Shown here: piece after piece, positions 2,253-62,954 of the stretch
Layout: every line of letters starts with the position of its first letter
Position numbering within the stretch: the first letter of the stretch is position 1
Assembly: GCA_949126835.1 (NCBI GenBank)
Contig: OX421497.1
Span: 30,074,742-30,138,741, forward strand
Source: Anisus vortex
Taxonomy: Eukaryota; Mollusca; Gastropoda; Planorbidae
DNA length: 64,000 bases
Direction: 5' to 3'
Notes under the pieces: generated by a model
The model's input: only the letters and a program-made list of their open reading frames with translations
What the model was told of the DNA's origin: nothing
Databases searched by the model: none
Translations under genes and position numbers: made by a program

Positions 2253-2755
2253 TGCTATGGTGCAAGTATTAATACAAGGGAAATTACTCATGTAAATCAA
2301 TTATAATATTAAGTAAGAATTATAAAACTTAGAATAAAACCCATATTTGTATATTAAAATAAAATAAAAAACCTAGAGTCTTCCTTAATAGATAGGAAGT
2401 AGATAGTCACATGATCGACCATGCTCATTCTTTAGTCTAACTCACGGTCTTGTAATGAAAGGACGTATAAATATATATAGACTCATAGACAATTATTAAA
2501 ATGTATTATAGCGCTACTATAACTACAAGTATTATTTCATGGATGTAAAGTGTAAACTGTGAGTAATAATAATTAAAGGATATGTGCTGCAACAAGGCGT
2601 TCTTTTATTTGATTACAAATTAAAATATATTGTGGTGAATTCGTCTGTTCAATGTCTGATAGCTGGAGACCAATATTTTCAGCAAATATAATAAAAACAC
2701 TCTGAAGAGACTGATTGCATAAATTGATGTACCAATAATAATAACGACATCAACA
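2253..2755 (+). repeat. 5' LTR of Gypsy copy 1
   Basis: Starts TGCTATGG and ends ATCAACA. It matches the 3' LTR at 9962-10468 over its whole length with a few substitutions and a 4-bp length difference near the GAAGAGA stretch. TATA-like TATAAATATATATAGACT near 2467 could serve as the promoter. The left flank is GTTAT. Confidence 0.95.
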
Positions 2756-3557
2756 GAATGGTGGCAGCATGCGATGCTAACAGAAAACGATGCTGAAATA
2801 TTCATTATATTAAATATTCAAGACTTATCGAACAACAAGACATTCTAAAAAACCGCATGGCATATTATGTGAGTATACCGGTTTTTGAACATTTCAAAAC
2901 TGAAGTCTGAGTCTATTAATTTACATCCATAACAACATAATCTGATTGAGCAACATACTAGCTCTCAGAATATATAAAATTTGTCCACCGATGACAAAAA
3001 TAACATTATTATAAAATTCGATACAAAAAATAGAATAAATTGACTATATATAGGTCATTATTTTACATTATTGCTGCAACCGGAAAAACTTCGTTACCAC
3101 ATGTTGTCAACAATGAACCTACACTATATCTTGAAGCCTGATGTGACATTTTCTATATGTTGAAATCTGATGTGACATGCCATTACATGTTAAGGTCTGA
3201 TGTGCTTACCGAATATAAATAAATAACAGTAAAAACTTTAAAGTTAAATAATTAATGTGTATACCAAAGACATTTGACATTAATATTAATAGTAGTATAC
3301 ATTTTTTTTCTTGTGTTATTTCTAAACTTTGATTACACCATACTGATTTGGAAACTTGTTACAACTCAGGATAGAAACAGTATACTGGATTACCCACTCT
3401 GGATTTTACATTGAAGTGATTTCATACAATGAGGAATATGTGTATTCATTTGGATTATTAGTTAGTCTTTTTAATCTCAATAATTTCTTTTCTCTCATTT
3501 TTCTGAATAATTAATTCTGATTCTAATTAATTACTACACATATTCATTATTTGTATG

Positions 3558-3645
<88 letters not shown>

Positions 3646-4650
3646 ATGGGCTTGGTGGAGGTAGTTTCTAAATAAATCTCTTGTCTATTCTTATTCTGTC
3701 TATAATCTATTTCTGTTTCTTAAAAGAGATTGATTAGAAATGATTCTTTGTTAGGTTTTTTTTCTGTTAGTTGTCTTGACTTTGTTTGTTTTTGTTAAGA
3801 ATTATTAATATAAAATTACTATGGTCTTGTCAATGTTATACATGTTGTGATTCTTTGTCAAAAATTCCTCTTTCATTGTGGTCCAGGCAGCATTTGTGTG
3901 TTTACATATTGTGATTGTGTTATTTTTCCATTATTACTTGATATAATTTTTTTTTGTTTTTTGAAATATCATTGATATTGCTAATTTCAACATAATTGAT
4001 ATGATCTCTGGGTATAATTGTCTATGGTAAAAACAATAACAATAATAGTAAGTTCTTAACCAATATAATAATAACATAATTAATCAATAGTACAACTATA
4101 TGATTTAAGTAGTGCCCAAATACATGTAACTAAAATCAACAATATAATAATTGATATATAATACATGTAACTAAAATATATTCACAATATAACAGGTCAA
4201 AGAGCCTAAATAAAAATAATATTGTGCTTTGCAGTGCTAATAAAATAGTATGGTTTAAAATTGCTATTGCAATAACTAATAATAGAATACTGGCTAATTG
4301 ATATGGCAATAAATAATAATGGAATACTGGCTTATGATAACATTAATCTAATTATTATGTGCTATCATTCCTGCTAATGGTGTAATAATTAGTAATTAGT
4401 AATAATAATATTGTATATGTGCTACCATTAGTAATAATAAGATTGTATATGTGCAACCTATGTAATACAAATAAGAAAAAATAGGTCATAATAAAAAATG
4501 TGTCTTGGCATAGCTAATATTTGTTGACATTCTATAGTAAACGTCTTGCTATAGCATAGGATTATAAGAGTGCTGTACTATAAAATATTGCTTTATAAAA
4601 ATTGTGCTGTACTATAGGGTCATACATTTTGAAATTCATAATGAATAATA
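2756..4650 (+). other. long untranslated leader of Gypsy copy 1
   Basis: About 1.9 kb between the 5' LTR and the first coding residue. It is very AT-rich and has no sizeable ORF. TGGTGGCAGCATGC at 2759, three bases after the LTR, begins with the TGG expected of a tRNA primer-binding site; the tRNA cannot be named. An 83-bp (AT)n microsatellite occupies 3560-3642. Confidence 0.6.
3560..3642. repeat. (AT)n microsatellite
   Basis: Uninterrupted alternating AT over about 83 bp inside the leader of Gypsy copy 1. Confidence 0.97.
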
Positions 4651-7065
4651 ATGGATTCCAAAGTTAAATTACTTTATGATGAAGCTGAACTATTAGCACA
4701 AAAGTTTGATATAACTGATAAGAAGGAATATCAAGAATTTGTTGAAAATAAAGTTAGACAATTGAAAAAGGAATTAGCTGATAAAGAAAGAGATGAGCGT
4801 GCAGAGTTAAGAGCTCATGAAATTAAACAAAGAGAACTAGAAAATGAATTAAAACAAAAAGAACTAGAACTAGAATTAAAAGAAAAAGAATTACATTTAA
4901 ATAAAGAAAAAGAATTGAAAGAACTAGAATTAAAAGAAAAAGAACTACAATTGAATAAAGAAAAAGAAACTAAGTTGAAAGAAACTCAGTTAAAATTAGA
5001 CCATGAACTGGAATTGGCTAAATTACAAAATACTAAAGTTGATCAAGCAAATAATGAAAAATCTAAACATGGTGTTAGATTCAAAATGACCCCTTTTGAT
5101 TGAAAAGAGAAAATTGTAGATTTTCTCAATCTTTTTGAAGCAACATGTAAAGGATATGGGATTCCCATTTCAGAATATTACATTCACCTTATCCCACAAT
5201 TGAAAGATAAGGGTAGGGAAGCTCTATCGCATATTGATAGAGAAATAACTGATTATGCCATTATCAAAGAACAGTTAATTAAATTCTATATTCACTCTGA
5301 GGATTACTATAGACAAAAGTTTCACAACTTTATCTTAACAGATAAGATAGAACCTAGAGCTTTTGTGTCTGAAGTGAAAACATTTTTACTTACATGGTTA
5401 GACTTAGTAAAAATAGATACCAAAAATCCTAATGAAATTATAGAAATCATGGTTGTTGATAAAGTATTAGAACAAGCTTCTAAAACATTGTTTACTCACA
5501 TTATGGAAAGAAAAGTAAAGACTGTTGAAAATTTGATAGATGCCATCTCAAATTTTAAAGATAATCACCCTAATGTAGAACTGACTAAACAAAATCAAAC
5601 ATTAAATACAATTCAGCATAAAAGAAGGAGTTATTCACCCCCTAGGTCAAGGCATAATTAATTTGTCAATAGAAAAAAGTTTGGTAATCAACCAAAATCT
5701 AATAATTATAGATGTATTATTTGCAATGGTACAAACCATTCATCAGAATATTGTTACAGGAATAAGAATGCAAGAAGTAGAAATTTCAATTCAAACTTCA
5801 ATAGATCAAATAGTGATCATAGAAATTTTTCAAATCAAAATGTTTCTAATTTTGATAATAGAAATTTTCCAAATCTGAATTTTTCTAATTTTGATAACAG
5901 AAATTTGCCAAATCAAAATTTTTCAAATCACAATGTGCCAAATCAAAATTTTGGAAGGCAAGATTTTCCTAATACTCAAAATAGACCTACATCAAATTTT
6001 CAAAATAGAAGAAATAGAGGGAAACCAAACAATTCCACATCTCAAACAAATAATGTAATATTTGAAAATAGGGGTCAATTAATACTTTTTCCTGCTTATG
6101 TGGGAGGAAAGAATACTTACTGTTTGAGGGATACAGGTTCCAGTATAATATGCGTAGATGAAAGTATCATTTCCAATCAGAAACCCACCAATATTATAAG
6201 AGTGGATACTATAAAACTAGGAAAGGGTTTTACTGTAAATTGTCCTGTCACTATAATAGACATTAATTGTCCTTGGCTTACAGGAAAAACAGAGGCAGCC
6301 ATTTTAAAAAACTGTGTTGCACCTCTGATTATTGGTAATGCTTTCAATGTCAAACATGATAATAGTTTTGACATATTTCAGAAATGGATGAATGAAAAAT
6401 CCAATGATTTAAATTTGAAACCTGTTCTATTGCAAAATGAAAAGTTGGTAGATTTACCAGAACAAGAATTTTACCCTGCTCTACAAACTTTTAATTTTTT
6501 ACAAACAATAGGAAAATTAGAAAATAATATTCTCCATGAGACACCTAATAAAGACTCATCCATAAATAATGAAAAGGATAATCATATTCCCAAATGGAAT
6601 GGAACAGAAAAACTAGAACAATATGTAAACAAATTTGAAAATCAATGTGAAATAAACAATGTACCAAAAGAATTACATGCTATTTCACTATGTAAACATT
6701 TAGAAGGTCATAAACAAATATTCAACATTGCTAAAAATCAAATATCTGATTTTACTAAAATGAAGACTGAGTTATTAGCATACATGGATAGTCCTCATAA
6801 AAAGGAAACTCAAATGAAGAAAACCGAAAATATCAGTTTAGTAAACATGCCTTTTGATGAGCAAACTCTCAAAAGAGAACAGAAAGAAGATCAATACATA
6901 ATTAAAATAGTATCAGAAATTGAAAAAGGTCATGCTAAAAACAAAAACATGCAAATAATAAATGGTATTCTTTGTAGGATAGATAACAAATTAGATGTAA
7001 CACAAATTGTTATACCTAAATCACTAACTGTTAAAGTTATGCAAATTTCGCACAACAATGTTTAG
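4651..7065 (+). pseudogene. Gag-protease reading frame of Gypsy copy 1
   Basis: One reading frame runs from ATG 4651 to 7065, broken only by TGA 5101-5103 and TAA 5659-5661. In order it has: a charged Lys/Glu coiled coil (about residues 45-140); a capsid-like domain starting near FKMTPFD with a SCAN-like second half (YRQKFHNFIL ... FVSEVKTFLLTWLDL ... MERKVKTVENL); and a CCHC zinc knuckle (CIICNGTNHSSEYC, near 5722). An Asn/Phe-rich repetitive linker and an aspartic protease with active site DTGSS near 6131 follow. A second capsid-like stretch starts near 6590 (KWNGTEKLEQYVNKFE). The frame ends at the start of the integrase zinc finger (PKSLTVKVMQISHNN). The two stops make it a pseudogene. 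SCAN-like Gag agrees with published work deriving the vertebrate SCAN domain from Gmr1-like Gag. Confidence 0.85.
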
Positions 7066-8282
7066 TCAGGTCATTTGAGTAGTAAAAAAAACATGTTGTA
7101 AAGTTAAAAAGAATTTTTGGTGGCCAAAATTAGAAAAAGATTTAAAAACTTTTATTAAAAGTTGTACTACCTGTCTGAAACATAATAAGAAAGATTCTAA
7201 ACATAAGGCTCCATTACAAATGACTGATACAATAGATAGGCCATTTTATAAAATTGCAGTTGACATAATTGGTCCAATGAAGCAAACTAAAACTTCTAAA
7301 GCAAAGTTTGCATTAACTATAATAGACATGGGAAGTAGATGGATTGAGGTTGTTCCTTTAAGAGAAATAACTGCTGAAAAGGTCTGTAATGCTCTTTTAC
7401 CTATCTTTTGTCGTTTCGGGTTTCCAAAGATCATCTTGAGTGACAATGGAACTCAATTCAAAGCAAACCTTACTCAAGCTTTTACACAAATGTTTAAAAT
7501 CACTCAAATTTTTAGTTCTATATACCATCCAGAATCTAATGGTATGATTGAGAGAGATAATCAAACAATAAAACAAATGATAGCTAAAGTGTGTGAAGAA
7601 CATCCATTTGAATGGGATGATTACCTTCCTGCTATTTTGTTTGCTTATAGACAATCTATTCATGAAAGCACAGGTTTTTCACCATTTGAATTAGTGCTTG
7701 GCAAAAATCCCAATGGACCATTGGATAATTTTAAATCACAATTGTTAGGAATTAAAGATAAAAAAATGTCTCCATTTGACTTAATCAATAAAACAGAAGA
7801 ACATATGAAAACAGCTTATGAATTTGCTGTAAAAAAAAATCAAGAAATAAAATCTAAAAATTTAAACAGAGAAAATATTCATAAGACCATGAGAAAATTA
7901 GAAATTGGTAATAAAGTACTTGTTTATTTACCAATTGGTACTGGCAATACTATGGAATGGAAAGGACCTTTTGAAATTGTACATAAGTAATCTGATGTAA
8001 CTTACAAAGTTAACATTAATGACAAAGAAAAAATTGTTTATGTAAAGAATTTAAGAGCTTATGATGAAAACCAAATAAATGACAGTCAATCAGGAAATAA
8101 AAGCAAAATAGAAAATAACAATATCATAATTTTTGAAGATAACAATATTCAAAACATTTTAAACATTGACTATTTTTGTGGTATAACCACACCATCCACT
8201 GATGAAATAGATCAAATACAGTTAGATCATATTGAAAATGAAAAGGTTAAAAACAACATTTTAAATTTATTGAATAAATTTA
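7066..8282 (+). pseudogene. integrase of Gypsy copy 1
   Basis: The HHCC zinc finger begins at the end of the previous frame and continues in broken form (SGHLSS ... FWWPKLEKDLKTF ... CTTCLKH). The core, open at 7220-7990, has the three acidic catalytic positions: AVDIIGP, ILSDNGTQFKA, and SNGMIERDNQTIKQM. The C-terminal part has a GPF motif (EWKGPFEIVHK). It continues past TAA 7988-7990 in the same frame (SDVTYKVNI ... VKNLRAYDE). Sequence is of Ty3/Gypsy type. It lies directly upstream of RT, which fixes the unusual gene order. The TAG at 7063-7065 and a frameshift near the run of A at 7084 disrupt the zinc finger. Confidence 0.88.
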
Positions 8283-9658
8283 TTGAATAAATGTAAAACA
8301 ACAATAACAGAGAAACCAGGATTAACAAATGTCATTGAACATAAAATAGAACTAACTGATATAAAACAATTTAGATCAAAAGCATATAATATTCATCAAA
8401 TGCTTGTTGAAAAAGTAGAAAAGGAATTAGACCAACTCATAGAAAGTAAGATTATAAAAAAAATCTATGTCTCAGTACTCATCACCCATGGTGATTGTTA
8501 GAAAAATAAAATGGTTCTATCAGATTATGTTGTGATTATCGCAAACTTAATAAAGTAACTAAAATTGATCAAGAGGGTTTGCCTAATATAGAACATATCA
8601 TTAACACTATGACCACAGGTAAAATATTTACTACCATAGATTTAACAAGAGGATTTTGGCAAGTGCCTCTTGATAAAAAAAATCAAATGATTATACAGCT
8701 TTTATTACACATAAAGGCGTATTTAATTGGAACGTGATGCCCTTCGGTTTGGTAAATAGTACTGCAACATTCACTAAACTAATGAGACATATTTTACCCC
8801 ACAATAAAAATATAGTTCACTATGTGGATGATATTTGTATCTTCACAAATACTTGGGATGAACACTTAATTCTATTAGAAGAAGTGTTGCAAATATTAAA
8901 AGACAATAACTTAACTGTATCTCTATCAAAATTACAAATAGGAAAAACTGAAATTGAATTTCTAGGACATAAATTTGAAAATGGTCAAGTAAAGCCAACA
9001 CAACACTTACATAAGAAAATTCTAGAAATACAGACGCCTAAAACAAAAAAGCATGTAAGGGCATTACTTGTATTATTTAACTATTACAGTAAATTTATTC
9101 CAAACTCTAGTCAAATAGTCAGACCTATAATAGATCTAACAAAAAAAGTATCAACCCAATATTGTACATTGGACTGACCAATGTGAAAAATCATTTAAAA
9201 TCCTGATAGATGCATTTTCTAAGGAACCAATATTAGAAACAATTGAAAAAGATGATGACATCATTCTAGCTTGTGATGCCTCAAAGTCAGGTTTAGGGGC
9301 TTGTATTTACAAAAAGGTCATTGTAGACTCTGATATAGTATATAAACCTGCCTTTTATGTAAGTCGTGCACTGACTAAAAGTGAAAGGAATTTTAGTGTT
9401 ATAGAATTAGAGGGTTTGTGCATAGTCTATGCTGTACTTAAGTTTCAATACTATTTGTTAGGTCGTCAATTTACAATTCTCACAGACCATAAACCACTTG
9501 TGAATTTTAATGTCTCTAATGTAAATAACAAAAGAATGAACAAATATGCTTTGATTCTATCAGATTACAAATTTCAGATGAAAAGTATTGTAGGAAAAGA
9601 TAACCATTTACCTGATGTGCTGTCGAGACTGTCGATACACATCACTGACATACAATAG
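8283..9658 (+). pseudogene. reverse transcriptase and RNase H of Gypsy copy 1
   Basis: RT begins with a typical Gypsy lead-in (KPGLTNVIEHKIELTD) and has IDLTRGFWQVPLDKK, MPFGLVNSTATFTKLM and the catalytic YVDD (HYVDDICIFTN, near 8819). RNase H follows with ACDASKSGLGA, IELEGLC and LTDHKPL, and ends DVLSRL at the TAG near 9656. At least three frameshifts (near 8470-8510, 8680-8715 and 9160-9250) separate the open pieces 8283-8501, 8734-9177 and 9416-9658. All catalytic boxes are recognisable, so the decay is mild. Confidence 0.88.
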
Positions 9659-9961
9659 TTAATCTCAGTATTACTGAAGTTGATTAGACAATACAAAAAG
9701 ATAATTGTCTATGACTAGTTGTCAATATAAACATTAGACATTATTATTTGTGTCTTTTGGTTATATTTGTGCCTATGAATTTTTTGTTGTTGTTTGTACA
9801 TATATTAAATGAATTTTTGTATGTATTATTAAATGAATTATTAGATACATTAATTAACATTAAGATACCTAACATAAAGATTTTTTTTTTTCAATTTTGT
9901 AAATATTTTTCGTATAAAAAATAATAATGAATTATTATTTTTTCTCTGTGTAGGGGGGGTA
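9659..9961 (+). other. 3' untranslated region and polypurine tract of Gypsy copy 1
   Basis: About 300 bp of non-coding sequence after RNase H. It ends with TAGGGGGGGT (9951-9960) right against the 3' LTR, the expected place and composition for the plus-strand primer. Confidence 0.8.
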
Positions 9962-10468
9962 TGCTATGGTGCAAGTAATAATACAAGGGAAATGACTCAT
10001 GTAAATCAATTATAATATTAAGTAAGAATTATAAAACTTAGAATAAAACCCATATTTGTATATTAAAATAAAATAAAAAACCTAGAGTCTTCCTTAATAG
10101 ATAGGAAGTAGATAGTCACATGATCGACCATGCTCATTCTTTAGTCTAACTCACGGTCTTGTAATGAAAGGACGTATAAATATATATAGACTCATAGACA
10201 ATTATTAAAATGTATTATATCGCTACTATAACTACAAGTATTATTTCATGGATGTAAAGTGTAAACTGTAAGTAATAATAATTAAATGATATGTGCTGCA
10301 ACAAGGCGTTCTTTTATTTGATTACAAGTTAAAATATATTGTGGTGAATTCGTCTGTACAATGTCTGATAGCTGAAGACCAATATTTTCAGCAAATATAA
10401 TAAAAACACTCTGAAGAGACAGACTGATTGCATAAATTGATGTACCAATAATAATAAGGACATCAACA
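9962..10468 (+). repeat. 3' LTR of Gypsy copy 1
   Basis: Begins TGCTATGG and ends ATCAACA, a near-identical partner of 2253-2755. It is followed by the second GTTAT copy (10469-10473). The minus-strand ORF that runs through this LTR into the L2-like gene is a junction artefact. Confidence 0.95.
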
Positions 10469-10473
10469 GTTAT

Positions 10474-11900
10474 GATGCTACCAACAGTCGCCGAGTAAAA
10501 TAGATTCATAATGGTTTTCTCTATGTGAAATATTTTTAGTTTATTAAGACAGAAAAGTCGTTGGTGCATTTTCTTACAAAGGCTTTGGCAGTGGTCAGAC
10601 CAAGTCAGTTTGTCAGTAATTGTAACGCCAAGATATTTATATTGCGAGACTTGATATATTATTTGGTTGTTTATGTGCAAATCAGCCAGCTTGTGTTTCT
10701 TCTTCCGGAAGTCTACAATCATTTCTTTCGTTTTTGTGATGTTCAGTATCAGGTAGTTCTCTCCGCACCATTTGTAGAAATCTGAGGTCGTCCTGTGATA
10801 TAGACTGTCGTCACTGAAAACAAGGCCGGCAATGGCTGTATCATCGGCGTATTTAATTACAGATACTGTATCGATTGCCGAACATTGAATGTCATTGGTG
10901 TAAATTGTGTATAGAACGGGAGAGAGGACACACCCTTGAGGCGCTCCAGTGCTTATTTCTCTTATTTGTGAGGTACATCCCTCTACTCTGACAAATTGAG
11001 GGCGGTTATCAGAAATTGCATGGTCCAGGCTTGGATGCGTTGACTGACATTTAAAGCAGATAGTTTCTGTATCATAAGGTGTGGTTGGATGGTATTGAAG
11101 GCAGATGAAAAGTCAACGAAGAGTATTCGAGCGTAATTCTTCGGCGTATCCAGATGGTGGTACAGTCTATCTAACATTAATACTATAGCATCCTCAGCAC
11201 TTCTGCCTTTTTTTGTAGGCAAATTGGTAGGGATCAAGGCTTTTGTGCACATTATTTAGTTTACGTCTGAGAATAATTTTCTCAAAACATTTCATGATAA
11301 TAGATGTTAAAGCGACAGGACGTAGGTCATTGTTGCAAAGGACTTTTTCTTTCTTTGGTACGGGCACAATCTCTGAGGTTTTTCAGATAATAGGAATAGT
11401 GTGGTTTTCCCAAGATTGATTACAAATGTAGCAAAAAATAAAGGACAGCTGTTCCGCACAAAGCTTTACTAGTCGCCCACTTATTCTGTCTGGTCCTGGC
11501 GCTTTGGATATGTTTACTTGTTTAAACAGTGACGTCACAACATCTACACTGAAACCTTCTATACATTCATCTAGAGTTAAATTTAAATTGTTAAAAGATG
11601 ACATTATGTCTTGGTGAATAGATATAAAATCGTGACAGTCAAAACGGCAGTAAAAATTATTTAGTTGGTTGATAAAAGTATTAATATCTTCATTCACACT
11701 CAGAGTGTTACGCTTGGGTACATAGCCCTGTGATTTTCTTTAGGCCATCCCAACATGCTTTTAAATTGTTCATACGAAAGAAACCTTCAATTTTTTGTTT
11801 ATATTGTTTTTTGCCTTCATGTATTTTCTTTTTAAGTTCTTTTTTGCAGAAATAAATTCTGATGTACCATTCTTAAAAGCATTTTTCTTGTTCAATATTG
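10474..11900 (-). pseudogene. L2-like reverse transcriptase, upstream piece
   Basis: Read on the minus strand: an entry motif (VNISKAPGPDRISGRL) near 11500; a palm segment (YARILFVDFSSAFNTIQPHL); a catalytic YADD (VIKYADDTAIAG) near 10850; and a thumb (KYLGVTITDKLTWSDHC ... LFYSATVGSI) that ends at the LTR insertion. At least two frameshifts separate 11383-11697, 10983-11252 and 10474-10785. The palm and YADD sequence resembles L2/Rex-like elements of animals. Confidence 0.85.
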
Positions 11901-11937
11901 CTTCTTTAATTTCTTTAGTCATCCAAGGTTTGTTGTT

Positions 11938-12729
11938 TTAAAATACCCTAATTTTCCTTCGAGGGATAATATGGTCTTCACAAAAAATAATATAGGAGTT
12001 GACAGTATCTCTTAGTTGATCAATGTCGGGACAATTATTTATAAAGACATTCCAATCAGTCTGTTCTAGACAGCTTTGTAGTCTTCCCACCGCCTCTTCT
12101 GACCATATCTGAATATATTTAGTTTCAGGTTTTGACAACTTTAAGACTGGTTTGTAACGAGGGGTAAGGTGTATCATTGTGTGATCCGATTCTCCAAGAG
12201 GAAATAAACTGTGAGAGACATAAGCACTTGTTATATTACCGTAACACATGTCAAGTATTCTAACAAGTCTTGTAGGACAGGACACATACTGCGAGTAGGT
12301 TGGTAATGACTGACTTAGTTATAGTTGATTAAAGTCCCCTAGGACAAGACAAACAGAGTCAGGGCTTGTTGATTCCTGTTCAGTTATGATGTCTAGTAAC
12401 TGGATAATAGCGATGTCCGTGTTGGCTGTGGGTGGGATGTAAACAAGTGTTACGTATATTTGTGCGATTTCTCTCGATAGATTGTATGGCCTGAGGCTGA
12501 CGCACAATACCTCTATGTCTGGTGTGCATATTCTTGTTTTGGTTGTAATGCTGTTGATACTGCAATATTGTTTGTTTATTAATATTGCCAGTCCTCCACC
12601 TTTACTTTTGCCACCATTGATGGTTCTGTCTGACCGAAGCAGATAAAATGCTTCTAAGTTCACAGAGGTATCTGGGACAGTTTCGTGGAGCCAGGTTTCT
12701 GTTAAGCATATTAACCCTTTCAGGACCAA
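11938..12729 (-). pseudogene. L2-like endonuclease domain
   Basis: Minus-strand exonuclease-endonuclease-phosphatase fold as used by APE-type retrotransposons. It has LTETWLHE, GGGLAILIN, VYIPPTANTD, VLGDFNQL and the terminal GESDHTMIHL. It is split into two frames near 12290-12320, so it is inactive. It sits upstream of the RT in element order, as expected for a single-ORF APE/RT polyprotein. Confidence 0.82.
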
Positions 12730-13526: not shown

Positions 13527-15467
13527 TTATACATTACAGACGCTCCTTCTAAAAAGAAGATTATTGCGTCCTACGCTCATCCGTGGTCCGAGTCTAGTCT
13601 TGCATTTTTATTAATGTTTTAAATGATGTTAGGTTATTGGTTTTCCTGGTTTGTTCAGGCAACCCATTCCATGCCCGAATGCCACTCGGGAAGAAAGAGT
13701 ACTTATATGCATTTGTTCTCGCATAAGGGACAAGGAAGGTGTTTTTGTCTCTATGTTTATCTGAGCTTTGCAACAGATTGTTATTGGGTTGTATTTCTAA
13801 ATTAGAGTTTAATGCCTTATGTATTATTACTACTTTACTCTTTGCCCTTCTGTCCTCTAGTGTTTCTAGGTTTAGTGATTTGACTAATGGTGTTACTCTT
13901 GTCAATGGGGAATATTCACTAGTTATAAACCTTGCAGCTCTTTTTTGAATTTGTTCTAATTTTTTAATGTTTTCTTTAGTTGATGGGTCCCATACAGATC
14001 CTGCATATTCTAGTATAGGCCTAACTAATGTGAGATAGCATTTTAGTTTTATATTCTTATTACATTTGTAAAAATTCCTTTTTATGAATCCTAATGTTTT
14101 GTTTGATTTTTTAATTACTTCATCAATGTGAGGGTTCCAAGATAACTTATCATTTATTATTACTCCTAGATACTTAGCATTGCTAGTTTGAGTTAGTTCT
14201 TTACCATGAATGAAGTAGTTTGTTATTATTTGTTTCTTTTTCTTGGATACCCTTATTAGTTGGCATTTTTCTGGGTGAAAAGACATACTCCAGTTTGATT
14301 CCCATTTTTGTAGTTCATCTAGGTCTTTTTGTAAAAGTTCACTATCTTTTCCTGTCTTTATTATTCTATAAATTATGCAATCATCGGCAAATAATCTTAC
14401 TTTTGTGCCTGTGTTGATGCAATTAGGCAGATCATTAATGTAAATTAGAAATAGTAGGGGCCCTAGAACAGTTCCTTGTGGAACTCCTGAGTTTACTGTT
14501 ATTGGTGATGACTTAGAGCCATTTATTATCACTGTTTGTTCTCTGCCTATAAGAAAGTCCTGAATCCACTGATGTAAGGGACCAGAGATGCCAAAGTATT
14601 TAAGTTTTTTAAGAAGACTAGAATGATGAACTTTATCAAATGCTTTTGAAAAATCTAGTAATATAGCATCAATTTGGTTGTTATTATCTAATCCCTTAGA
14701 CAAGTCATCTATTAAGCCTATCAATTGAGTCTCACATGATCTATTTTTCCTGAAGCCATGTTGGTGTGGGCACAGTGCATTTAGTTTGTCTAGATGATTT
14801 ACTATACTACTATATATTATATGTTCAAGTAATTTACATGTTATGCTTGTTAGAGAAACAGGTCTATAATTTCCGGGGTCAGATTTATCTCCTTTTTTGA
14901 AAAGGGGGGTTACATTGGCTAATTTCCAATCTTTGGGCACTTTGCCCTGGTTTAGAGAGGCCTGAAAAAGTATTTTAAAGATTGGAGATATTTCATTAGT
15001 TAGTTCTTTAAGCAGTCTTGCTGGTATTTCATCTGGACCAGAAGCTTTGTTTACTTTTAAGTTGGTTAGGAGTTGTTTAATGCCTTTTTCATCTACATTT
15101 ATATTTCCTATCTCTTCTAGTTTGTTTAAATTTATGAATATTTCTTTGTCACCTGGATTTGAAAAAGATGATGCAAAGTGTGTGTTTAGGATATTAGCTT
15201 TAGTTTCATTATCATTATAAGTTTCATTGTTTTGGCCTTTTAGTGGAGCTATGCCTGTAGTGTCCATTTTTCTTGATTTAATGTAGGACCATAAGTTTTT
15301 ATTATTATCTTTAGAAATTACATTGTTTACATATTCATTCTGCAGCTGTCTGCTTAGTTTCTGAGTTAAATGTTTAATTTTTAGGTATTTTTTATGTAGT
15401 CTCATTGAATTAGTTGCCTTAAACTTTTTGAAAAGATTTTCTTTTTGTTTACACAGTTTCTTTAGTT
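13527..15467 (-). mobile_element. 5'-truncated CR1-like non-LTR retrotransposon
   Basis: A minus-strand insertion between two pieces of the 43-bp satellite. The 5' side is truncated inside coding sequence, and the 3' UTR of about 65 bp ends near 13527. The open frame reaches the truncation point. The last part before the satellite can form a hairpin (AGACGCTCCTTCT paired with part of AGAAGATTATTGCGTC is only partial). No clear target duplication was found, which is common for CR1-group elements. Confidence 0.85.
13594..15467 (-). CDS. reverse transcriptase of the CR1-like element, 5'-truncated but open
   Basis: An uninterrupted frame of over 600 residues. From the ATG at 15405 it is 603 residues, and it stays open for 20 more to the truncation. 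RT boxes: KASGPDEIPARLL, GNYRPVSLTSITCKLLE, HQHGFRKNRSCETQL, ILLDFSKAFDKVHH, SGVPQGTVLGPLLFLIYIN, and the catalytic FADD (RLFADDCIIYR). A CR1-type thumb and C-terminus follow (YLGVIINDKLSW ... LVRPILEYAGSVWDP ... IRAWNGLPEQTR). The endonuclease is missing because of the truncation. The lack of any stop over 1.8 kb points to a young insertion from an active lineage. Confidence 0.93.
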
Positions 15468-15690
15468 TTGTTGTGTTATTTACATGATGTCAGGTTTAGT
15501 AAAACATCGATTGTTATGTTATTTACATGATGTAAGGTTTAGTAAAACATCGATTGTTGTATTAATTACATGATATTATGTCAGGTTTAGTAAAACATCG
15601 ATTGTTATGTTTTTTACATGATTTCAGGTTTAAAAAAATACAGCAATTTTTATGTCATTTACATGATGTCAGGTTTAGGTTTAACACTGT
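15468..15690. repeat. 43-bp satellite array, segment 3
   Basis: Five more diverged 43-bp units. The array decays after 15650 (GATTTCAGGTTTAAAAAAAT) and ends by about 15690. Confidence 0.9.
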
Positions 15691-21818: not shown

Positions 21819-24572
21819 TAGGGCGTCCCAGAAATGCTCGAAAAAAATATTTTTTTAAATCTTTGGTGTCTCACCCCCTGAAATGTGTCTCTTGGGTACA
21901 ATGAGTGAATTGGTGAAGTTGTAGCTCATTTGAACAACATTTAGAGGTCCCTCAAGAGCTTTTAAAATTCCAGTATTAGGCCAACATAAAAATCCAGAAG
22001 AATCGTGGCTCAAAAAACTTGCAGTTTTTGCATGCCATATATGAATAAAATGAAGTTTAAATATACTTATTTTTACCTCATTGCTACCATTAACTGGAGT
22101 TGAAATTGTGTGATTCTTAATTAGAAAATGTAATAAATGCGAGAAAACATATAAAATACCTAATGTGCAAAACTTGTGCATATTTTTTTAAAATTTGATT
22201 GTTTTAAACTAAGCAGCTTTTGAAGTTGCAACGAGAATCAAGAACAGGATCAATTGGATCTGTGGACAAAAAGCTTGCTGCTAAAGAAAAACGAGTTGCT
22301 GAGCGTCAGAAACAATTTATCAGGGATGTTGGTGATGCAGCAAAAGATGCTACATCACAGTGCCGTCACCATGGGTTACCATCAGGTTCAAGTGTAGAGT
22401 CAGCAGTAGAAATAGAACAGCAACTGGATGTAGGTGGTTCTGACAGTGACACAGACACACATTCAATGACATCATCCATTTGTCGGGATTCCAGTGACGA
22501 TGCAGAACCTGATGAAGAATTTGTCATCCAATCAGCATCCTCAAGCAAAACAAATTCTGCAACACGACATCGCAGACGCAGCATCTCACCAAAAGTTGCT
22601 GCTATGCTGGACAGAACGAACACCAGCATTAGAAAATCTACAATGATACTTGCATCAACATTCAACGATGGTGGTGTTCCGACATCTGACACAGTATTTT
22701 CCAAGAGCACAATGCATCGTCATCGCAATCTTCGTCGTCAACAAGCTGCAGAACGTATAAAAGAAGACTATATTCCCTCAAAATCGATTGTTCATTGGGG
22801 TGGTAAGCTATTGCTCGATGTTACCGGAGAGGTTACCAACAACGTCGATCGATTACCTGTCCTGCTCTCATCACTTGTCGATCGCACTACAAAGCTTCTT
22901 GGTGTTCCCAAGTTAGCATCCGGGTCCGGGTCAGGACGGGCAGCTGCTGATGCAGTCTATGAACATATCAAATCGTGGAAGTGCGAATCTTTGGTCATCG
23001 GCATGTGCTTCGACACTACGGCTTCCAATACTGGAAGACTCAATGGAGCTTGCACTCTGTTAGAAGTAGCCCTGGGACGTAATCTATTATGGATGGCATG
23101 CCGTCATCACATGTTGGAAGTACTCCTTTCCGATGCATTCAATGTTTGTCTTGGACCATCCACTGGACCAGAGATTTTGTTTTTTAAGAGGTTTCGAGAA
23201 AAATGGCCAGAATTAAACCACACACCCGAAGCCAGATCCGCCCCTTTGATAATCGTGTCCGATTCGATTAAAGAATTTATCAAATGTCAACTTGAGGTCA
23301 GTCATTCACGTTATGATTATTTGGAATTTCTTCTGCTTGCTGCACAAATGGTTGGGTTGGAGGTTGATGTCAGCATTCGCAGACCTGGTGCCCTACATAG
23401 GGCAAGGTGGATGGCGAAAGCAATCTATGCATTGAAAATCGAACTATTGTTTGCAGGCAACGAAACCATCTTTCAGTTAACAGCTCGAGAATTACAAGGT
23501 ATTCAGCGCTTAAATCGGTTTACCATAGGTGTTTATCTTCAATCATGGTTTTCATGCAGGCTCACCGCAGATGCATCTGTGAATGATATCTTGTTGATAC
23601 AGCGTTTATACGAATATGATGATGCTGTTCTTCAATCGACTGGATTGAAAATGATGGTGCGTCCCTCGTGGTACTTGAGTCCGGAACTGTCGACGTTTGC
23701 GATATTTTCAACCCTTTTGTCGGACAAAGAAAAAACTGGCCTTATTCGGACAATGCAATCAGAACGTGGACAGCATCTCATAAAAACACTACCAAAAAGT
23801 GTTGTTGATTTGCGCGTTTCTACCACATTTTTTGAAACATCCAACATTGATGCCAGTTTTCTAGATGTTCCTTTTGAAGCATGGTCAGATACACCATCTT
23901 TTAAAGTTGCAGCAGATTTTGTAAAGAATCTGGCTTGTATCAATGACTCTGCAGAGCGAGGTGTAGCATTGATAAAAAAATTTCAATGACAGTATCACCA
24001 AGGACGAAGAACAAAAACAATTTTTGCTCCAAGTGGTTGACAAACATCGGACAAATTTTGCAGAGTGTAATCGTGAACAGCTGGCTAAAATTTAAATTTG
24101 AAGAACTTTTGTAAATTTTTGTCTACCCTACAGTACAAAGTACAAGATAAATATTAGGAATGCTTAATTGCATTGCTTATTATTATTTTTCAAGCAGATT
24201 GACATTCTTTCAAGAATTAACTTGACAAATGAATAAAACTTTGTTTTTCATAATTTTTTACTTAAATTTCAAATTTAAATATATAAACCAATCAAGATTT
24301 ATATATTTTGTTTCATTTAATATTATAAACAATACTAAGCATCAATTTGTTACTTAATATATCAGTTTCGCATATAATGCAACATTAACGCTGTATTAGA
24401 TTTGACCGCGAATGATTTTACACCAAAATCTGGAACTTTAAACCTCTTGGGGGGCCTCTAAACATTGTCCAAATGAGCTGAAATTTTGCAGGTTAACTAC
24501 TGTTACCATACAGACATATTTTGTGGGGTGAGACATCAACATTTCAAAACTTCATTTTTTTGGGACGCCCTA
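21819..24572 (+). mobile_element. hAT-like DNA transposon with TIRs and 8-bp target duplication
   Basis: TAGGGCGTCCCA at 21819-21830 is mirrored by TGGGACGCCCTA at 24561-24572. Similarity between the two ends continues inward for roughly 140 bp (for example GGTGTCTCACCCC against GGGGTGAGACATC). CTATCCTT flanks both sides (21811-21818 and 24573-24580), an 8-bp target duplication as hAT elements make. The interior encodes one transposase-like protein. At 2,754 bp it appears structurally complete. Confidence 0.88.
22220..23989 (+). pseudogene. divergent hAT-like transposase, C-terminal frameshift
   Basis: A frame of 589 codons. Its first codon shown is TTG; the frame is open back to an AG at 22215-22216, so a 5' exon probably precedes it, and the first internal ATG is near 22466. 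Acidic and Ser-rich N-terminal region. The core has CFDTTASNTGRLNGACTLLE and WMACRHHMLEV, resembling the hAT D-x-A-S-N and C-x-x-H blocks. The end has CINDSAERGVALIKK, in the place of the conserved hAT C-terminal block. The frame stops early at TGA 23987-23989. Another frame continues in coding style (ITKDEEQKQFLLQVV) to TAA 24093, so a one-base change in the A7 run at 23974-23980 has removed about 35 residues. Superfamily rests on TSD length plus these motifs. Confidence 0.75.
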
Positions 24573-27800: not shown

Positions 27801-30800
27801 CAGCTTGAATTCCTCGCGTTTGGTTGGGTCTCTGAGATATATTGTTTTGAACTTCTTTCGCTGGTTTAATTCGCATGTCCAATTCCTTCTAAGTTTAAGT
27901 TTGACACGTGCGACAAGAAGGTGGTGGTCAGAAGCCACATCCGCTCCTCTCCTAACATGTACATCTTGCAGAGACTTCCTGAACTTCTTGGAGATGCATA
28001 TATGGTCTATCTGGTTCCCGATGTGGAGGTCTGGTGAGAGCCAAGTGACTTTGTGTATCTTTTTATGGGGGAAGATGCTACCTCCAATGACAAGGCGGTT
28101 TGCAGCACACAGATCTGCAAACCTCTCTCCATTGTCACTCATCTCTCCCAACCCCTCTCGACCCATAACCTCTTCGTAACCAGTGTTGTCGTCTCCTATT
28201 TCAGCATTAAGGTCTCCAATCAACGTGGTTATGTCTCTGCCAGGAAACCTCTGAATGATGCTTTGCAACCTACCGTAAAATTCATCCTTCATAGAATCCT
28301 CACTGTCATTCGTAGGAGCATAGCATTAAACGAGGTTAAAGTTTATCTTATTTTTCTTTGTTCTGAAAGATGCAGTGATTATTCTTGGACCATGTGCCTC
28401 CCAACCAATGAGTGCTCCTTGGTCCGCCTTTGAGAGCATGAAAGCCACTCCCTGAGTGTGGGGTCCGTTTTCCTCCTCGTGACCTGAGTATAAAAGTAGC
28501 TCTCTTGTAGAGAGCCTCTTCTGGCCGGAATCTGTCCATCTGGCTTCACTGATGCCGAGGATGCTAATCTTATAGTTCCTCATCTCTATTGCCACTTGTG
28601 CTGCTTTGCCGGCTTCAAACATGGTTCGAACATTCCATGTTTCGATTGTAAGTGTGGTCCTGGTTGAGATGATGGCCGTCTGCCTGACAGCTTCCAGTTG
28701 CTGGCTTTCACTGCGCGGCATCATCGTACCTCCCACTGGAGGTCCATCCTCACCCAGTACCGAGTTGTTTGTTGAAATCCTTGTTAGTGTGTTTGTAGCG
28801 ATTAGTGGTTTGACGGGAATGGGTTGCTAACCCCTTGCCCAACCCTCCTTCTTTCTCACCCGGGCTTGGGAATGGCTATGGCGGAGTTAAATGCGTAGTA
28901 ATTGCAGGCAAACATAAATTGTAAAAATTGCAGGCAAACATATATTGTAGTAATTGCAGGCAAACATATATTGTAGTAATTGCAGGCATATATATATTGT
29001 AGTAATTGCAGGTAAACATATATTGTAGTAATTGCAGGCATACATATATTGTAGTAATTGCAGGCAAACATATATATATTGTAGTAATTGCAGGCCTACA
29101 TATGTTGTAGTATTTGCAGGAAAACCAATATTGTAGTAATTGCAGACAAACCAATATTGTAGTAATTGCAAGCATACATATGTTGTAGTATTTGGAGGCA
29201 AACAAATATTGTAGTACATGCAGGCAAACATATATTGTAGTAATTGCAGGTGAACATATATTGTAGTAATTGCAGGCATACATATATTGTAGTAATTGTG
29301 GGAAAACATATTGTGTAGTAATGAAGGCAAACATATATTGTAGTAATTGCAGGCAAACATATATTGTAATAATCGCAGGCTGACATATTTTGTAGTAATT
29401 GCAGGCAAACATATATTGTAGTAATTGCAGGCAAACACATATTGTAGTAATTGAAGGCAAACTTAGATTGTAGTGAATGCAGACACCTATATATTGTAGT
29501 ATTTGCCGGGAAACATAATAATATATTTTAGTAATTGCAGGCAAACATAGATGGTATTAATTGCAGGCAAACATATATTGTTATAATTGAAGTCAAACAT
29601 ATATTGTAGTAATTGCAGACAAACATATATTGTAGTAATTGCAGACAAACATATATTATAGTATTTGCAGGCAAAACATATATTGTAGTAATAGCAGGCA
29701 TACATATATTGTAGTATTTGCGGGCATACATATAGTTTAGTAATTGAAGGCAAACATATATTGTAGTAATTGCAGGCAAACATATATTGTAATAATTGCA
29801 GGCTTAAATATATTGTAGTAATTGCAGGAAAGCATATATTGTAATAATTGCAGGCTTACACAGGGCCGGCTCTACCATATAGGCGAACTAGGCGGCTGCC
29901 TAGGGCGCAAAATTTTGGGAGCGCAAAATTGAGGATTTATTTTTAATTTGGGTCTTTAAAAATATAAACTATATTAAAGTTTAGTGCTTCTGCGCGCTAC
30001 TAGCATAGGTAAGTGAATGAATAGGTAATGAAAGGTGAAGGGTATTTTATTTAAATTCTCTTAGAAAATAGGAAAGCTTGCCTAACAGTAGCCTACTTAG
30101 TTTAGCAACCACGCTGTGCGTAGCGGCAAACATATTGTAGTAATTGAAGACAAACTTATATTATAATTAATGTAGGCACCTATATATTGTAGTAATTGCA
30201 GGCAAACATAATAAAATATTGTAGAAATTGCAGGCAAACATATATGGTATTAATTGCAGGCAAACATATATTGTAATAATTGCAGGCTTACATATATTGT
30301 AGTAATTGCAGGCAAACATATTGTAGTAATTGAAGACAAACTTATATTGTAGTGAATGCAGGCACCTATATATTGTAGTAATTGCAGGCAAACATATTGT
30401 AGTAATTGAAGACAAACTTATATTGTAGTGAATGCAGGCACCTGAAATTTACAAACATTTATGGTATTAATTGCAGGCAAATATATATTGAAGTAATAGC
30501 AGACAAACATATACTGTAGTATTTGAAGTCAAACATATACTGTAGACTAGTGTGAAGGAGGTGATTACTTCTAGGCTTTGTCTCACGGCATCACAATAAC
30601 AACAAAGACAAAATAGTTCGACGTAGACAGTTTTGGCACGGACTATATATAGGTTTGAAGACCAGTTTATTGTGTAGTCTAGTGGGGACGATAAGCACAA
30701 AGACTGGCGCTACTTGATAGTTGATATTTGTGCGATCGTGAGGGGGACTAAACTAAATGTAGGGACAATGCGAGACAGAATCCAGAACGCTAATAAATCT

Positions 30801-45400: not shown

Positions 45401-48400
45401 CCTTTGATAGGAACGATAGGTTGGAAACTGTCAGGTTATTCTTTAGGCAATCAGCATCCATTTTTTCTGTGATAACAGGAACCAGTTCATCGAGTCAGTC
45501 GATTAGTATTGAGCATGGAATTGGAACAAGATCACATGACGTTTTTGGCATCTTCATAATTAGGTTTTTAATATAGGCCTCAGACACGCAATAGAGAGAG
45601 GAACCCTGTAAGACATGATCATTGTAACATAGACTTAAAAACAAATTAGGTCTATGTATTTGTTGCTTGCTTTTAAATGCGCTATGAGCTTACAATATGT
45701 TTGTTGGCAGCGCAATAAAAATAAGCTTATTATAAACATATATAATATATTATTATTATATAATATGTATGTGTTTGTCAAATTACCACCAATTTAAAAT
45801 ATGCTTTTTATTTTGTTAGCCTTATAAGAATTCCTTTAATTTTGATGCTATATTTTATTATATTCCTTTTCTCCACTCAGATATTTTGATAGATTTTACA
45901 TGTGCCTGTACGCTAGTTCCTCCCAGGAGTGTCACCCTCAAGGGGACGGAATCAGCAGCAAGGAGAACCTTCTAGAGAGCATGATCCTAAGGGTCAGCGT
46001 CTGGATCGTCGGGATCTTCGCCTGCTTGGGCAATCTTCTTGTCTTACTGGGTAGGTTCTTCACTAAGGAGGACAACCGCATCCACTCCTTCTTCATCCAA
46101 AACCTCAGCATGGCCGACTTGCTCATGGGGATCTACCTGCTCATCATCGGCGTACACGACATGAAGTACCGGGGAGCGTACATCCTCTTCGACGAGATCT
46201 GGAGGAACAGCTGGTTGTGTAACTACTCCGGGATGCTGTCCACCCTTAGTACGGAGATGTCCGTCTTGACCTTGTCCATCATTACCCTGGACAGATACAT
46301 TATTGTTATGTACCCTATGTCTAACAGAAAGCGAGGACTGAAGCTATCTTACTGCATCATGATCTTCACCTGGGCAGTTTGTATATTTCTGGCCACTCTA
46401 CCGCTCATGGGCCTGGACTATTTTGGCGTCACGTTCTATAGAGACAACGCTTTGTGTGTCCCTCTGCACCTTCATGACCCCAGAGTTCAAGGCTGGGAGT
46501 TCTCAACTTTTCTCTTTATTGGTATTAACTTTGGATGCTTTGCCTTTATTGCTTACGTCTACGTAGCCATGTTTTATGCCATTCACATGAGTGCTCTCCC
46601 TTTGAGGACGTCCCGTTAATCCAAGGAACGGTGGTACATGGTTCAGCGTTTCTTTTTTATAGTCATTACAGACTTTTTATGTTTGGTCCCAATCATCATA
46701 ATCAAGATTGTGGCACTTGGAGGTAAAAATATAACTTCAAAAAATTATAAACATTCCTGTTTTTGTTTTACATATTTACACCGTTTTTAAATATTAAATT
46801 CTATCGTTATTAAAAGCCCATTAAAAAGTAAAGACTAGTTTGCTAGGTTAAAATAAATAATCATTAAAATGAAAACTTGTTAGCCCTAGTAGAGTGGTTT
46901 TGTGCTGTGTATAAATTAAACTTGAAAATCTAGACAGAAAATACTTTAAATTAATGTATTCAAATGAATTTTATACAATTCATTTTAATCATATATTTAG
47001 CTGAGAGGCCTGCTTTCTAAAAAAAATATAATGTATAATATTTTGTTTCCTAATAAAATAATAGGCAAATAAAGAAACGCATTTTTCAATATGTATATAT
47101 GTGGCGTTTTGGGGAGAAGATTAACACCACACGAACTAAGAAAGGTTTTTAAATGTAATCCGCTCTTATAAGATACTATAATCATCTCATGTGTACGTAC
47201 AAACCACTGACACTATGTGCCACTATTGAATGTCTGATTGGAGTAAGAATGTGTCTTTCCTTTCTATCTCATATATTATTTAACATTAAAGTATTTAGCT
47301 TTGCATTGAATTTTATTTATATATATGTATACGTTCTGCATGCTTATCAGTATATTACTTATTGTTATACGATTAGTCATTGATATTAGTTCCCATTCAT
47401 GTATATTATAAATGTTGTAGCACGTGTGTGTTCCTCCCCCTCCCCGCCCCACGCCTTCGGAACAAGGCCAGGGTCATACCTGACGCAACCAAGCTAATCC
47501 CCCCCCACCCCACAGTCTCTTTGACCAGATCACAGGAAATTCACATCTCAATGACGGTTCTTCCCCTGGTCAGAGAATAGGGAACTTGGAATCTTTGATG
47601 CAGGACCCCGACGGACAAGAGAGAAAACTCTGACCAACAACACAGGGCCTTCGAAGTTTCCCTACCGCCGCGTCTTCTCCCCCCCCCCCGCACCCCCTCC
47701 CCACTACCGTTTGGTACTTATTTTCACATGCCAATCAATCAAATGTTGAATTGAAGAGACATGTTGACCAATCGGATACGCTATCTACTGGTCAATCTTA
47801 CCCTTGCCCCTCCCCCCTCATTACAATCACGTGGGGAGTTGCAACCTAACTTGTTGTTTAACATGTAATGTAAATGTAAGTTAGTTTTAGGTCAGTCTGG
47901 CTTAAGGAGTCTCGAGGGTTGGATGCCCCGAGCTCCAATAGCACCAAGCGGTGCTATAGTCTGTTGTAGAGTCCTTGTTAGGACTATCTGCTACATATAG
48001 TTTAAGCCTATGATTAAATGTACACTCTTTATCACTTGTATTTGGATTGTATGAATTATGTGCTCATGTCATCAATGATTGAATACGGACTTTCACGTGA
48101 ATAAAATATTCGTTGTTACAATACGCCTTGCTTATCGATTGATAGAATACCTGTTTGTGTGACGTCCAGCGACAGTGTCAATTAGTCAACAGTTTAACTC
48201 AACCTACGTATTAACGAGCCAAAACGAAACCTGGATATAAATTTGTCTTAGAATCACCTAGGAATCATCTGCACTTCGGGACCACATACCACCTAGAAAA
48301 CCTGCCTAAATCACCCCTCCCCATCACCCTGTGTACCTGCTGAGTTATCCACTAAGTCTGCACTGATAGCCTAGGCTAATTGCAGGCTCGGTGACAGAAT

Positions 48401-58300: not shown

Positions 58301-59024
58301 TGAATGTATTCCAATCTGCTCTTTTAAAGTTCCAAGTTAATGGTTGTTGAGTTGGTATTTTGGAGTTGGTAGTAAGCAGAATAGGCTGATGATCTGAACC
58401 ATAATTATTTTCTAAAACACTCCAGGTAAAGTCCGTAAATAGAGTTGAATCTGCCATTGTTAAATCGAGATAAGATGGAGATAAATACGTAGAACTATAA
58501 AAAGTCGGAGTACCATCATTAAAAATGCATATATTTCTTTCCTCTAGTAATCTTTCAATTAATTTTCCTCTTTGGTTTGTATTATGATTTCCCCATATAG
58601 GGTTATGGGCATTAAAGTCTCCCATAAGTATAATTGGAGGTGGGAGTTGTTTAATTAGATCATCTAGTTGAGAATATAGTATTGTATGATCTGGTGGAAT
58701 ATAAATTGAGCATATGGTTAATGGTTTTGTTAATGTAAATCTTACTGCCACAGCTTGAATGCAGGTATTTATTTTGATCCTCCTATGTAAAATATTGGAT
58801 GCTATAAATATGGAAGTACCTCCGCATGCAATTTTTTTAGAATGAATTTGGTGATAAGCGGTATAGCCACGCAATTCAAATGATTCTGTGTTAAATTTTA
58901 TTTCCTGTAGACAAATTACTATAGGATTTGTCTCAGTTATAATAAGTTGTAGTTCTGGAATATTGTATTTTAGTCCTCTACAGTTCCATTGTAAAATATT
59001 CTTATATTCTGAATTCATATCCAA
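55349..59024 (-). pseudogene. ORF2 (endonuclease-RT-RNase H) of the I/Nimb-type element, one frameshift
   Basis: ATG 59024 opens the endonuclease (LQWNCRGLKYN, CLQEIKF, MGDFNAHNPIWG, YGSDHQPILL), followed by the RT entry TKNTAPGPDTIHNEIIRQL. The frame breaks between about 57559 and 57580 and continues in another frame: YRPIALTNCFCKIMEK, FFDLEKAFDTTWKYG, EGVPQGSVLSPTLFNIKIN, the catalytic YVDD (CFLYVDDFVIYY), and RNase H (QIYTDGSKND, ILSDSLSCL, WVPGHAGIDGNEKAD). The end is Cys-rich (MAPMCAFCNANLTVSDILLE). All catalytic residues are present, so one indel is the only visible lesion in about 1,220 codons. Confidence 0.92.
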
Positions 59025-59107
59025 GAGTGTATATTTGTAATATTAATTTCTTTCTTTCCTTATTTTTTTTTATTTGGTTTTTGAAGGGTTTTTATTATAA
59101 TTTTACA

Positions 59108-61233: not shown

Positions 61234-61751
61234 CTAAACAGTAAACCTCGATAAAACATCAGGTATCTTATTATTTACCCCCTTTATCGATTTTATATCA
61301 AATTGATAATCCTGTAACGCTAATGCCCATCTGGTCACTCTGCCATTTTTGACCTTCTCACTGTTAAATTAATTAATATTAATAAAGGTTTATGACCAAT
61401 CGACACTGTGAATTTCTTGCCTAACAAATATTTTTGTAACCTAGTTATAGCCCAATCGAGACTCAAACATTTTAATTATATTACTGAATAATTATCCTCA
61501 GCCTTATTCAATTTTCTACTAAGATATAATATAGGCTTATTAATTCCTTGATCATATTGCATCAAACAAGCCCCTAAGCCTTTTCTTGAGGCGTCAGTAG
61601 CTAACGTAAGCTCTTTTCTGATATCTATGGGCACTAGAATAGGTGTAGACTGAAATATAGCCTTTATGTTTGCCAACGCTTCTTCACATTCTTTATTCCA
61701 TTCAATTTTGTTAGGACTATTCTTTTTTGTTAATTGTACTAACGTTTCCAC
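61234..61751 (-). pseudogene. RNase H of Gypsy copy 2
   Basis: Minus strand. It has IEWNKECEEALANIKAIF, LATDASRKGLGACLMQYD and ILYLSRKLNKAEDNYSVI. After in-frame stops near 61470 it continues in decayed form (YLLGKKF, then LALQDYQFDIKSIKG) to DVLSRF and TAG at 61234-61236. Confidence 0.85.
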
Positions 61752-62914: not shown

Positions 62915-62954
62915 TACTTTATCCCCTTTTCCCAGTTTTCTTAAAAATCTATAC

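Follow-up and report, generated by a model that had tools for sequence, protein, structure and literature searches.

Element A carries its integrase upstream of reverse transcriptase

The DNA analysed here (the window) is a stretch of 64,000 nucleotides from contig OX421497.1, and near its start lies element A, a long terminal repeat (LTR) retrotransposon on the plus strand (2253-10468) with the order gag, protease, integrase, reverse transcriptase (RT) and RNase H. The Pfam matches follow one another along the strand as SCAN, integrase zinc domain, integrase core, RVT_1 and Gypsy-type RNase H, the pieces searched separately giving E values of 6e-9 (H2C2), 7e-13 (rve), 4e-21 (RVT_1) and 3e-27 (RT_RNaseH), and no integrase match reached the HMMER inclusion threshold between the RNase H and the 3' LTR (best E 0.024, in a reverse-strand frame). 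An earlier note, made from the sequence alone, had described this order within one LTR pair and one GTTAT duplication, with a DTGSS retropepsin near 6131, a Ty3-type integrase core, an RT with YVDD near 8820 and an RNase H end, and our analysis recovered each of these at the positions listed in Table 1. We consider it probable that element A is a defective integrase-first (Gmr1-like) Ty3/Gypsy copy from a recently moved family, and that classes of this family lacking RT are moved in trans and give structural protein.

The two LTRs (503 and 507 bp) are identical at 494 of 503 aligned positions (98.2%), with one 4-base gap and a Kimura two-parameter distance of 0.018, and both have TG..CA ends. 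The insertion was clean and lies in the RT of a minus-strand long interspersed nuclear element (LINE; window 10474-12318 and about 1850-2252), and rejoining the flanks gives a continuous LINE RT frame of 282 residues over the site. The same ten primer-site bases follow the 5' LTR in 12 of 13 other copies with that stretch printed, locus L056 deviating from the last two on. Element A itself is a dead, defective copy: in the stretches examined, in-frame stops occur at 5101, 5659, 7063 and 7988, and the frame changes after 7065 and within the RT.

The capsid matches SCAN (PF02023) at 28.2 bits (cut-off 27) and the human PEG3 SCAN domain with an E value of 7.7e-7, and a Pfam scan of the N-terminal gag region gave no family above the cut-off. 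The retropepsin scored 13.5 bits (E 0.13), under the family cut-off. The integrase motifs lie at 7256-7273, 7439-7459 and 7547-7564, with the second D and the E 35 residues apart, and the first zinc histidines sit ahead of a stop. Reviews, which like the other papers below are cited from excerpts of their text, derive SCAN from a Gmr1-like gag (PMC4592553, PMC3424704), and a frog survey is reported to have found it only in its Gmr elements (PMC4131045); the present data add a probable mollusc to the hosts of SCAN-type gags, from which a domain of vertebrate transcription factors is reported to derive. A second gag with a SCAN match of 36.7 bits lies about 1 kb beyond the window end, in an open frame of 916 residues (L010:1966-4716, plus strand) in which a CCHC motif, a protease with DTGAS, the remnant of an integrase C-terminus and a hydrophobic end can be made out by eye; this gag-protease frame without RT might be a domesticated gene or another semi-autonomous element.

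Table 1. Features of elements A and B, in window coordinates
Feature	Position	Strand	Basis or remark
A: 5' LTR, TG..CA, GTTAT at 2248-2252 just before	2253-2755	+	
A: primer-binding-site-like TGGTGGCAGC, three bases past 5' LTR	2759-2768	+	
A: gag N-terminal region, charged, coiled-coil-like	4645-5100	+	by eye, sequence only
A: gag capsid, SCAN-type C-terminal half at 5302-5565	5107-5658	+	Pfam PF02023, human PEG3 SCAN match
A: CCHC zinc knuckle CX2CX4HX4C	5713-5754	+	motif
A: retropepsin, DTGSS (6130-6144) to LIIGN motif	6130-6345	+	motifs
A: CA2, conserved domain separating protease and integrase	6583-6840	+	weak capsid-like similarity to element A's own gag
A: integrase: second half of H2C2 zinc part, DD35E core, GPF motif within 7958-7972	7079-7987	+	
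A: RT, YVDD 8821-8832	8677-9174	+	earlier RT parts ~8277-8722, other frames
A: RNase H	9140-9655	+	motifs at 9269-9499
A: polypurine tract ahead of 3' LTR	9952-9961	+	
A: 3' LTR, then GTTAT 10469-10473	9962-10468	+	
B (cut by window end): integrase zinc domain and start of core, with 21-bp tandem array	63509-64000	-	
B: more integrase pieces, two frames (63154-63381, 62955-63194)	62955-63381	-	
B: integrase C-terminus (GPY) and RT	61739-62962	-	one open frame of 407 aa
B: RNase H	61234-61787	-	broken frames

Further integrase-first families and their phylogenetic placement

The integrase-first order of element A is not an artefact. We searched the 863-Mb assembly (159 contigs) with the integrase, scored 130 of 7,103 candidates, all 88-100% identical, and sampled every seventh row. 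In all 18 sampled copies, capsid, CCHC, protease and CA2 lie upstream of the integrase in that order, without RT; downstream, RT and then RNase H follow in 12 copies and neither in six (five with the replaced segment described below, one truncated), and RT preceded integrase in none. Full copies (class 1) carry gag, CCHC, protease, CA2, integrase, RT and RNase H as a single frame of up to about 1,680 residues, and open frames of at least 1,600 residues occur at 28 of the 130 integrase places. Among the best 150 of 3,737 RT candidates, which were those scored, we found a second, very uniform family with an RT about 80% identical to that of element A, and all three copies fetched have integrase, RT and the RNase H start in one frame in that order. 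Element B (61234-64000, minus strand) likewise has its integrase upstream of RT and is related to element A only distantly, the aligned stretches being 56% identical in the integrase core and 52% in the RT; within its integrase zinc region a 21-bp repeat (window 63757-63956, minus strand; 9.5 copies at 99%) runs in frame and encodes repeating AAHTIPL. At least three integrase-first families in this genome thus support the suggestion of the earlier note that the lineage may be diverse here, and the order RT-RNase H-integrase, which it had wanted looked for in other copies, was absent from the sampled copies and from the 80% family. Its remark that Gmr1-like elements were first described from deuterostomes has dated, crustacean and annelid ones being in print (PMC3587641, PMC8220671).

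The same order occurs in database proteins: by profiles, an integrase core or C-terminus precedes the RT in 11 of 62 found with element B (in protein P0047 weakly), and P0035, from another database search, is a twelfth. P0049, with an RT 64% identical to that of element A, is one unbroken protein across the integrase-RT junction.

The placement of element A was assessed in a quick RT tree (70 rows) and two careful ones, the first of 52 rows and the second of 49 including the integrase-last control L001; 18 and 22 rows, mostly a distant block and long branches, had been dropped before them. A clade of 23 rows containing A and B had a support of 97 in the quick tree and 100/99 in the 52-row tree, and comprises ten integrase-first rows including B, 12 rows of unknown order including A and one without integrase upstream (P0063). 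The latter, from Actinostola, is a sea-anemone gene model in which an RT of the integrase-first clade is fused to a DUF6589 region. Within the two careful trees a 15-row clade with A and B received 100/98 and 97/94, and holds four integrase-first rows and no integrase-last row. A and B also group together, separately from the integrase-last rows, in the trees of integrase (34 rows) and RNase H (30 rows); in the latter this separation is weakly supported (55). The RT, RNase H and integrase trees agree for element A, and its RT and integrase, which the earlier note had thought might fall in unrelated Gypsy clades, both place with integrase-first sequences. A single origin of all integrase-first rows was not rejected in either careful tree (p 0.617 with 52 rows, p 0.474 with 49; P0063 was excluded from both contrasts), and in the 52-row test the tree held to a single origin scored even better than the free tree. 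A tree constrained to group the RT of element A with the integrase-last L001 and P0083 and with P0082, which lacks an integrase upstream, was rejected (p 1.8e-6).

Classes without reverse transcriptase and selection on their tail

In class 2, RT and RNase H are replaced by a tail of about 90 residues, made of two repeats, and noncoding DNA; class 3 is built in the same way and has in addition lost the integrase catalytic core by an in-frame deletion. At nine RT-less loci, homology to element A stops just past the integrase (8,093-8,157), restarts at the RNase H end (9,626-9,632) and continues into the 3' LTR. The replaced segment of about 1 kb is 89-95% alike in eight of the nine (L003 is shorter) and starts with the in-frame tail, which measures 73-94 residues in the cuts used and is open at seven of the nine loci (not in L007 and L027). 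Its two repeats are similar to each other (0 of 1,000 shuffles as good), and the tail matched no Pfam family (best E 0.063) and resembled the class 1 linker, gag and protease frame no more than shuffles did.

A genome search with the tail, in which 150 of 358 candidates were scored and every tenth row was sampled, yielded 15 copies, six with a full-length integrase (L061 with broken frames) and nine with the core removed. Eight of these nine join residues 63 and 264 in frame, L059 being a variant, and the junction is the same in six of the eight and one or two bases off in the other two; this near-uniformity points to a single deletion event. Neither RT nor RNase H was found in any of the 15 sampled copies or in any of 41 pieces including the LTR regions. 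Open frames at the 150 tail places measure 980-1065 residues in 76 cases, 1195-1245 residues in 25 and other lengths in 49.

The movement of element A's family in this genome is very recent, and this holds for all three classes. An LTR pair was obtained in 17 of 19 copies with both ends fetched (none from L021 of class 1 and L053 of class 2), and the pair is identical in three of six class 1, three of five class 2 and five of eight class 3 copies; the remaining class 2 and 3 pairs differ at one to three positions. In class 1, the LTRs of L024 differ at 3 of 347 positions, and the best repeat match of L028 (691/696) exceeds the LTR length, with 414 of 414 positions in agreement inside the LTR. 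Five-base target duplications flank three of six class 1, three of five class 2 and seven of eight class 3 copies, and these 13 copies have the same ends, primer site and polypurine tract, with small differences in L054, L056 and L059. Capsid sequences are mixed among the classes, with two sets identical between classes 1 and 3, and the integrases of classes 1 and 2 interleave. Such mixing suggests that the classes exchange sequence, which leaves the tail as the only part informative on the RT-less classes alone.

Codon models, run on a fixed topology, took in only distinct rows and stop-free regions covering at least 80% of the length. Purifying selection acts on the tail, with an omega of 0.403 in classes 2 and 3 together (p 6.9e-7, 21 rows), 0.434 in class 2 (p 1.3e-4, 12 rows) and 0.226 in class 3 (p 3.0e-7, 9 rows). 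Constraint was also found in CA2 (0.227, p 2.8e-4, 14 rows), the protease (0.152, p 1.4e-15, 15 rows), the class 2 integrase (0.088, p 3e-57, 11 rows) and the class 3 capsid (0.104, p 7e-6, 6 rows). As a control, the noncoding DNA that follows the tail (334 columns without gaps, 15 copies) gave 1.36, 0.71 and 1.12 in three pseudo-frames, none different from 1 (p 0.30, 0.19 and 0.70).

Other parts of the window contain further LINE-like RT frames on the minus strand, at 13594-15489 (631 residues) and at 55349-59042 (749 residues with RNase H, beside a frame of 505 residues). A partial rhodopsin-family receptor (45846-46619, plus strand; 7tm_1, E 1.3e-19) is the sole host-gene-like frame of the ten scanned; an open frame of 593 residues (22208-23989, plus strand) has no Pfam match at E up to 0.001, and a tandem array at 28876-29855 (minus strand) is open in several frames, with encoded repeats like CLQLLQYMFACNYYNI.

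A proposed division of labour and comparison with known systems

Our data suggest a model whereby class 1 makes all proteins from one frame, and the RNAs of classes 2 and 3, which would have class 1-like ends, depend on class 1 enzymes for packaging, reverse transcription and integration. In return, the Gag-protease-CA2-tail protein of classes 2 and 3 would add to the particles, as others have proposed for Quinta and Sabrina in wheat, and we propose that the tail is kept under selection because its protein makes this contribution. The integrase-first order would make loss of RT easy, because RT and RNase H end the frame and form a removable end of the polyprotein, whose upstream parts need not be touched. 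More tentatively, and with some doubt, we can imagine a three-tier split of labour within one family, with autonomous members, RT-less members having protease and integrase, and members with structural proteins and protease only; the RT-less tiers might then be obligate suppliers of Gag-like protein, replacing the shorter Gag-only product of a single-frame element, and the tail and CA2 might be particle-building modules.

Several observations weigh against reading the family as an integrase-first lineage with contributing RT-less partners. The samples were drawn from best-scoring lists, so the class proportions are not genome proportions, and the codon tests are confined to stop-free regions; no signal came from the integrase ends left in class 3 (omega 0.75, p 0.46; eight rows, one out of register). 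Given sequence exchange among the classes, class 1 could be the source of the constraint seen in the gag, protease and integrase of RT-less copies. The wider integrase-first clade is unstable: in the 49-row tree P0076, without integrase upstream, and P0080, of unknown order, join P0060 at 81/90, and the integrase-first proteins P0035, P0064 and P0065 fall outside the clade. Finally, the trees contain no named Gmr1 sequence, none having been among the database matches.

The RT-less copies could instead be simply parasitic: deletion derivatives, mobilised in trans, with frames that are open only through the youth of the insertions. Identical or near-identical LTR pairs would indeed have left little time for frame decay, and gag and integrase constraint could stem from exchange with class 1; the tail, however, was seen here in RT-less copies only, with divergence among them and an omega of 0.40 (0.23 in class 3), whereas the noncoding DNA beside it is not different from 1, and we regard this explanation as unlikely. 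Somewhat less likely still is that the tail was captured as a gene and has a separate function, be it targeting, envelope-like or anti-host, in a class that is an independent lineage and not a partner: a tail without a Pfam family and without above-shuffle similarity to the linker, gag or protease frame of class 1 would agree with this, but the termini, primer site and capsid are common to class 1, some of them identical, and copies without RT, as those sampled are, would be unable to replicate alone. That the order arose locally in element A, by chance rearrangement or recombination of a Copia-like frame with a Gypsy RT, is hardly credible even though this order is normal in Copia elements (PMC6238403) and element A is damaged by frameshifts, because it is also seen in element B, in 12 of 18 sampled copies, in another family and in unbroken database proteins, Pfam, scanned at E up to 1, gave no Copia-type RT (RVT_2), and the integrase and RT trees agree. 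A single-copy rearrangement event as the source of the order is refuted by its recurrence across copies and families.

Integrase-first Gypsy elements have been reported from fish, frogs, crustaceans and annelids (PMC2582038, PMC4131045, PMC3587641, PMC8220671). Those of the Gmr1-like clade (cod Gmr1, sea-bream Saugg1, crustacean GyRex4, annelid LGF3) are described with the same protease-integrase-RT-RNase H order and Gypsy-type domains as element A (PMC2582038, PMC3587641, PMC8220671), and a SCAN-type gag, as in element A, is reported for such elements (PMC4592553, PMC4131045). Element A has the marks of this clade, namely integrase upstream of RT, Gypsy-type RT and RNase H, an integrase with zinc part, DD35E core and GPY/F motif, a SCAN-type capsid C-terminus, and trees that group it with integrase-first elements; compared by description, its family may differ in the additional CA2 between protease and integrase and in its RT-less partner classes. 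A survey of LTR elements in molluscs names Gmr1 as a known exception and, in the excerpt available, does not place it among the known clades found there (PMC6238403). The survey covered nine mollusc genomes by RT and RNase H, and its MolGy Gypsy clades may therefore hold the RT lineage of element A unrecognised, a likeness judged by description, without sequence comparison (PMC6238403). Among the literature matches listed, judged by titles and abstract starts, we found no report of a mollusc Gmr1 element and none of a semi-autonomous LTR partner in an animal.

The RT-less classes have the features of semi-autonomous partners: a long gag-containing frame without RT; LTRs, primer-binding site and polypurine tract in common with an autonomous partner; and recent movement with target duplications. 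So far such partners have been argued from wheat, where the 'semi-autonomous' Gypsy element RLG_Sabrina_SA is described as keeping a Gag-protease frame after loss of RT and integrase (PMC9744471), as the RT-less classes do here; unlike in the plant element, one class here has a full-length integrase and the other its ends, both have a selected tail, and the partner is integrase-first. RLG_Quinta and RLG_Cereba, likewise from wheat, are reported to have LTR, primer-binding-site and polypurine-tract motifs in common, and an exchange by template switching has been proposed, Quinta keeping Gag and a domain of unknown function (PMC11302176); in contrast to the classes here, Quinta, a plant element with centromere targeting, retains just these two. 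The present family adds a selected protein module, the tail, that is seen only in RT-less members, and its recent graded series in an animal makes the question of whether such partners are parasites or contributors directly testable.

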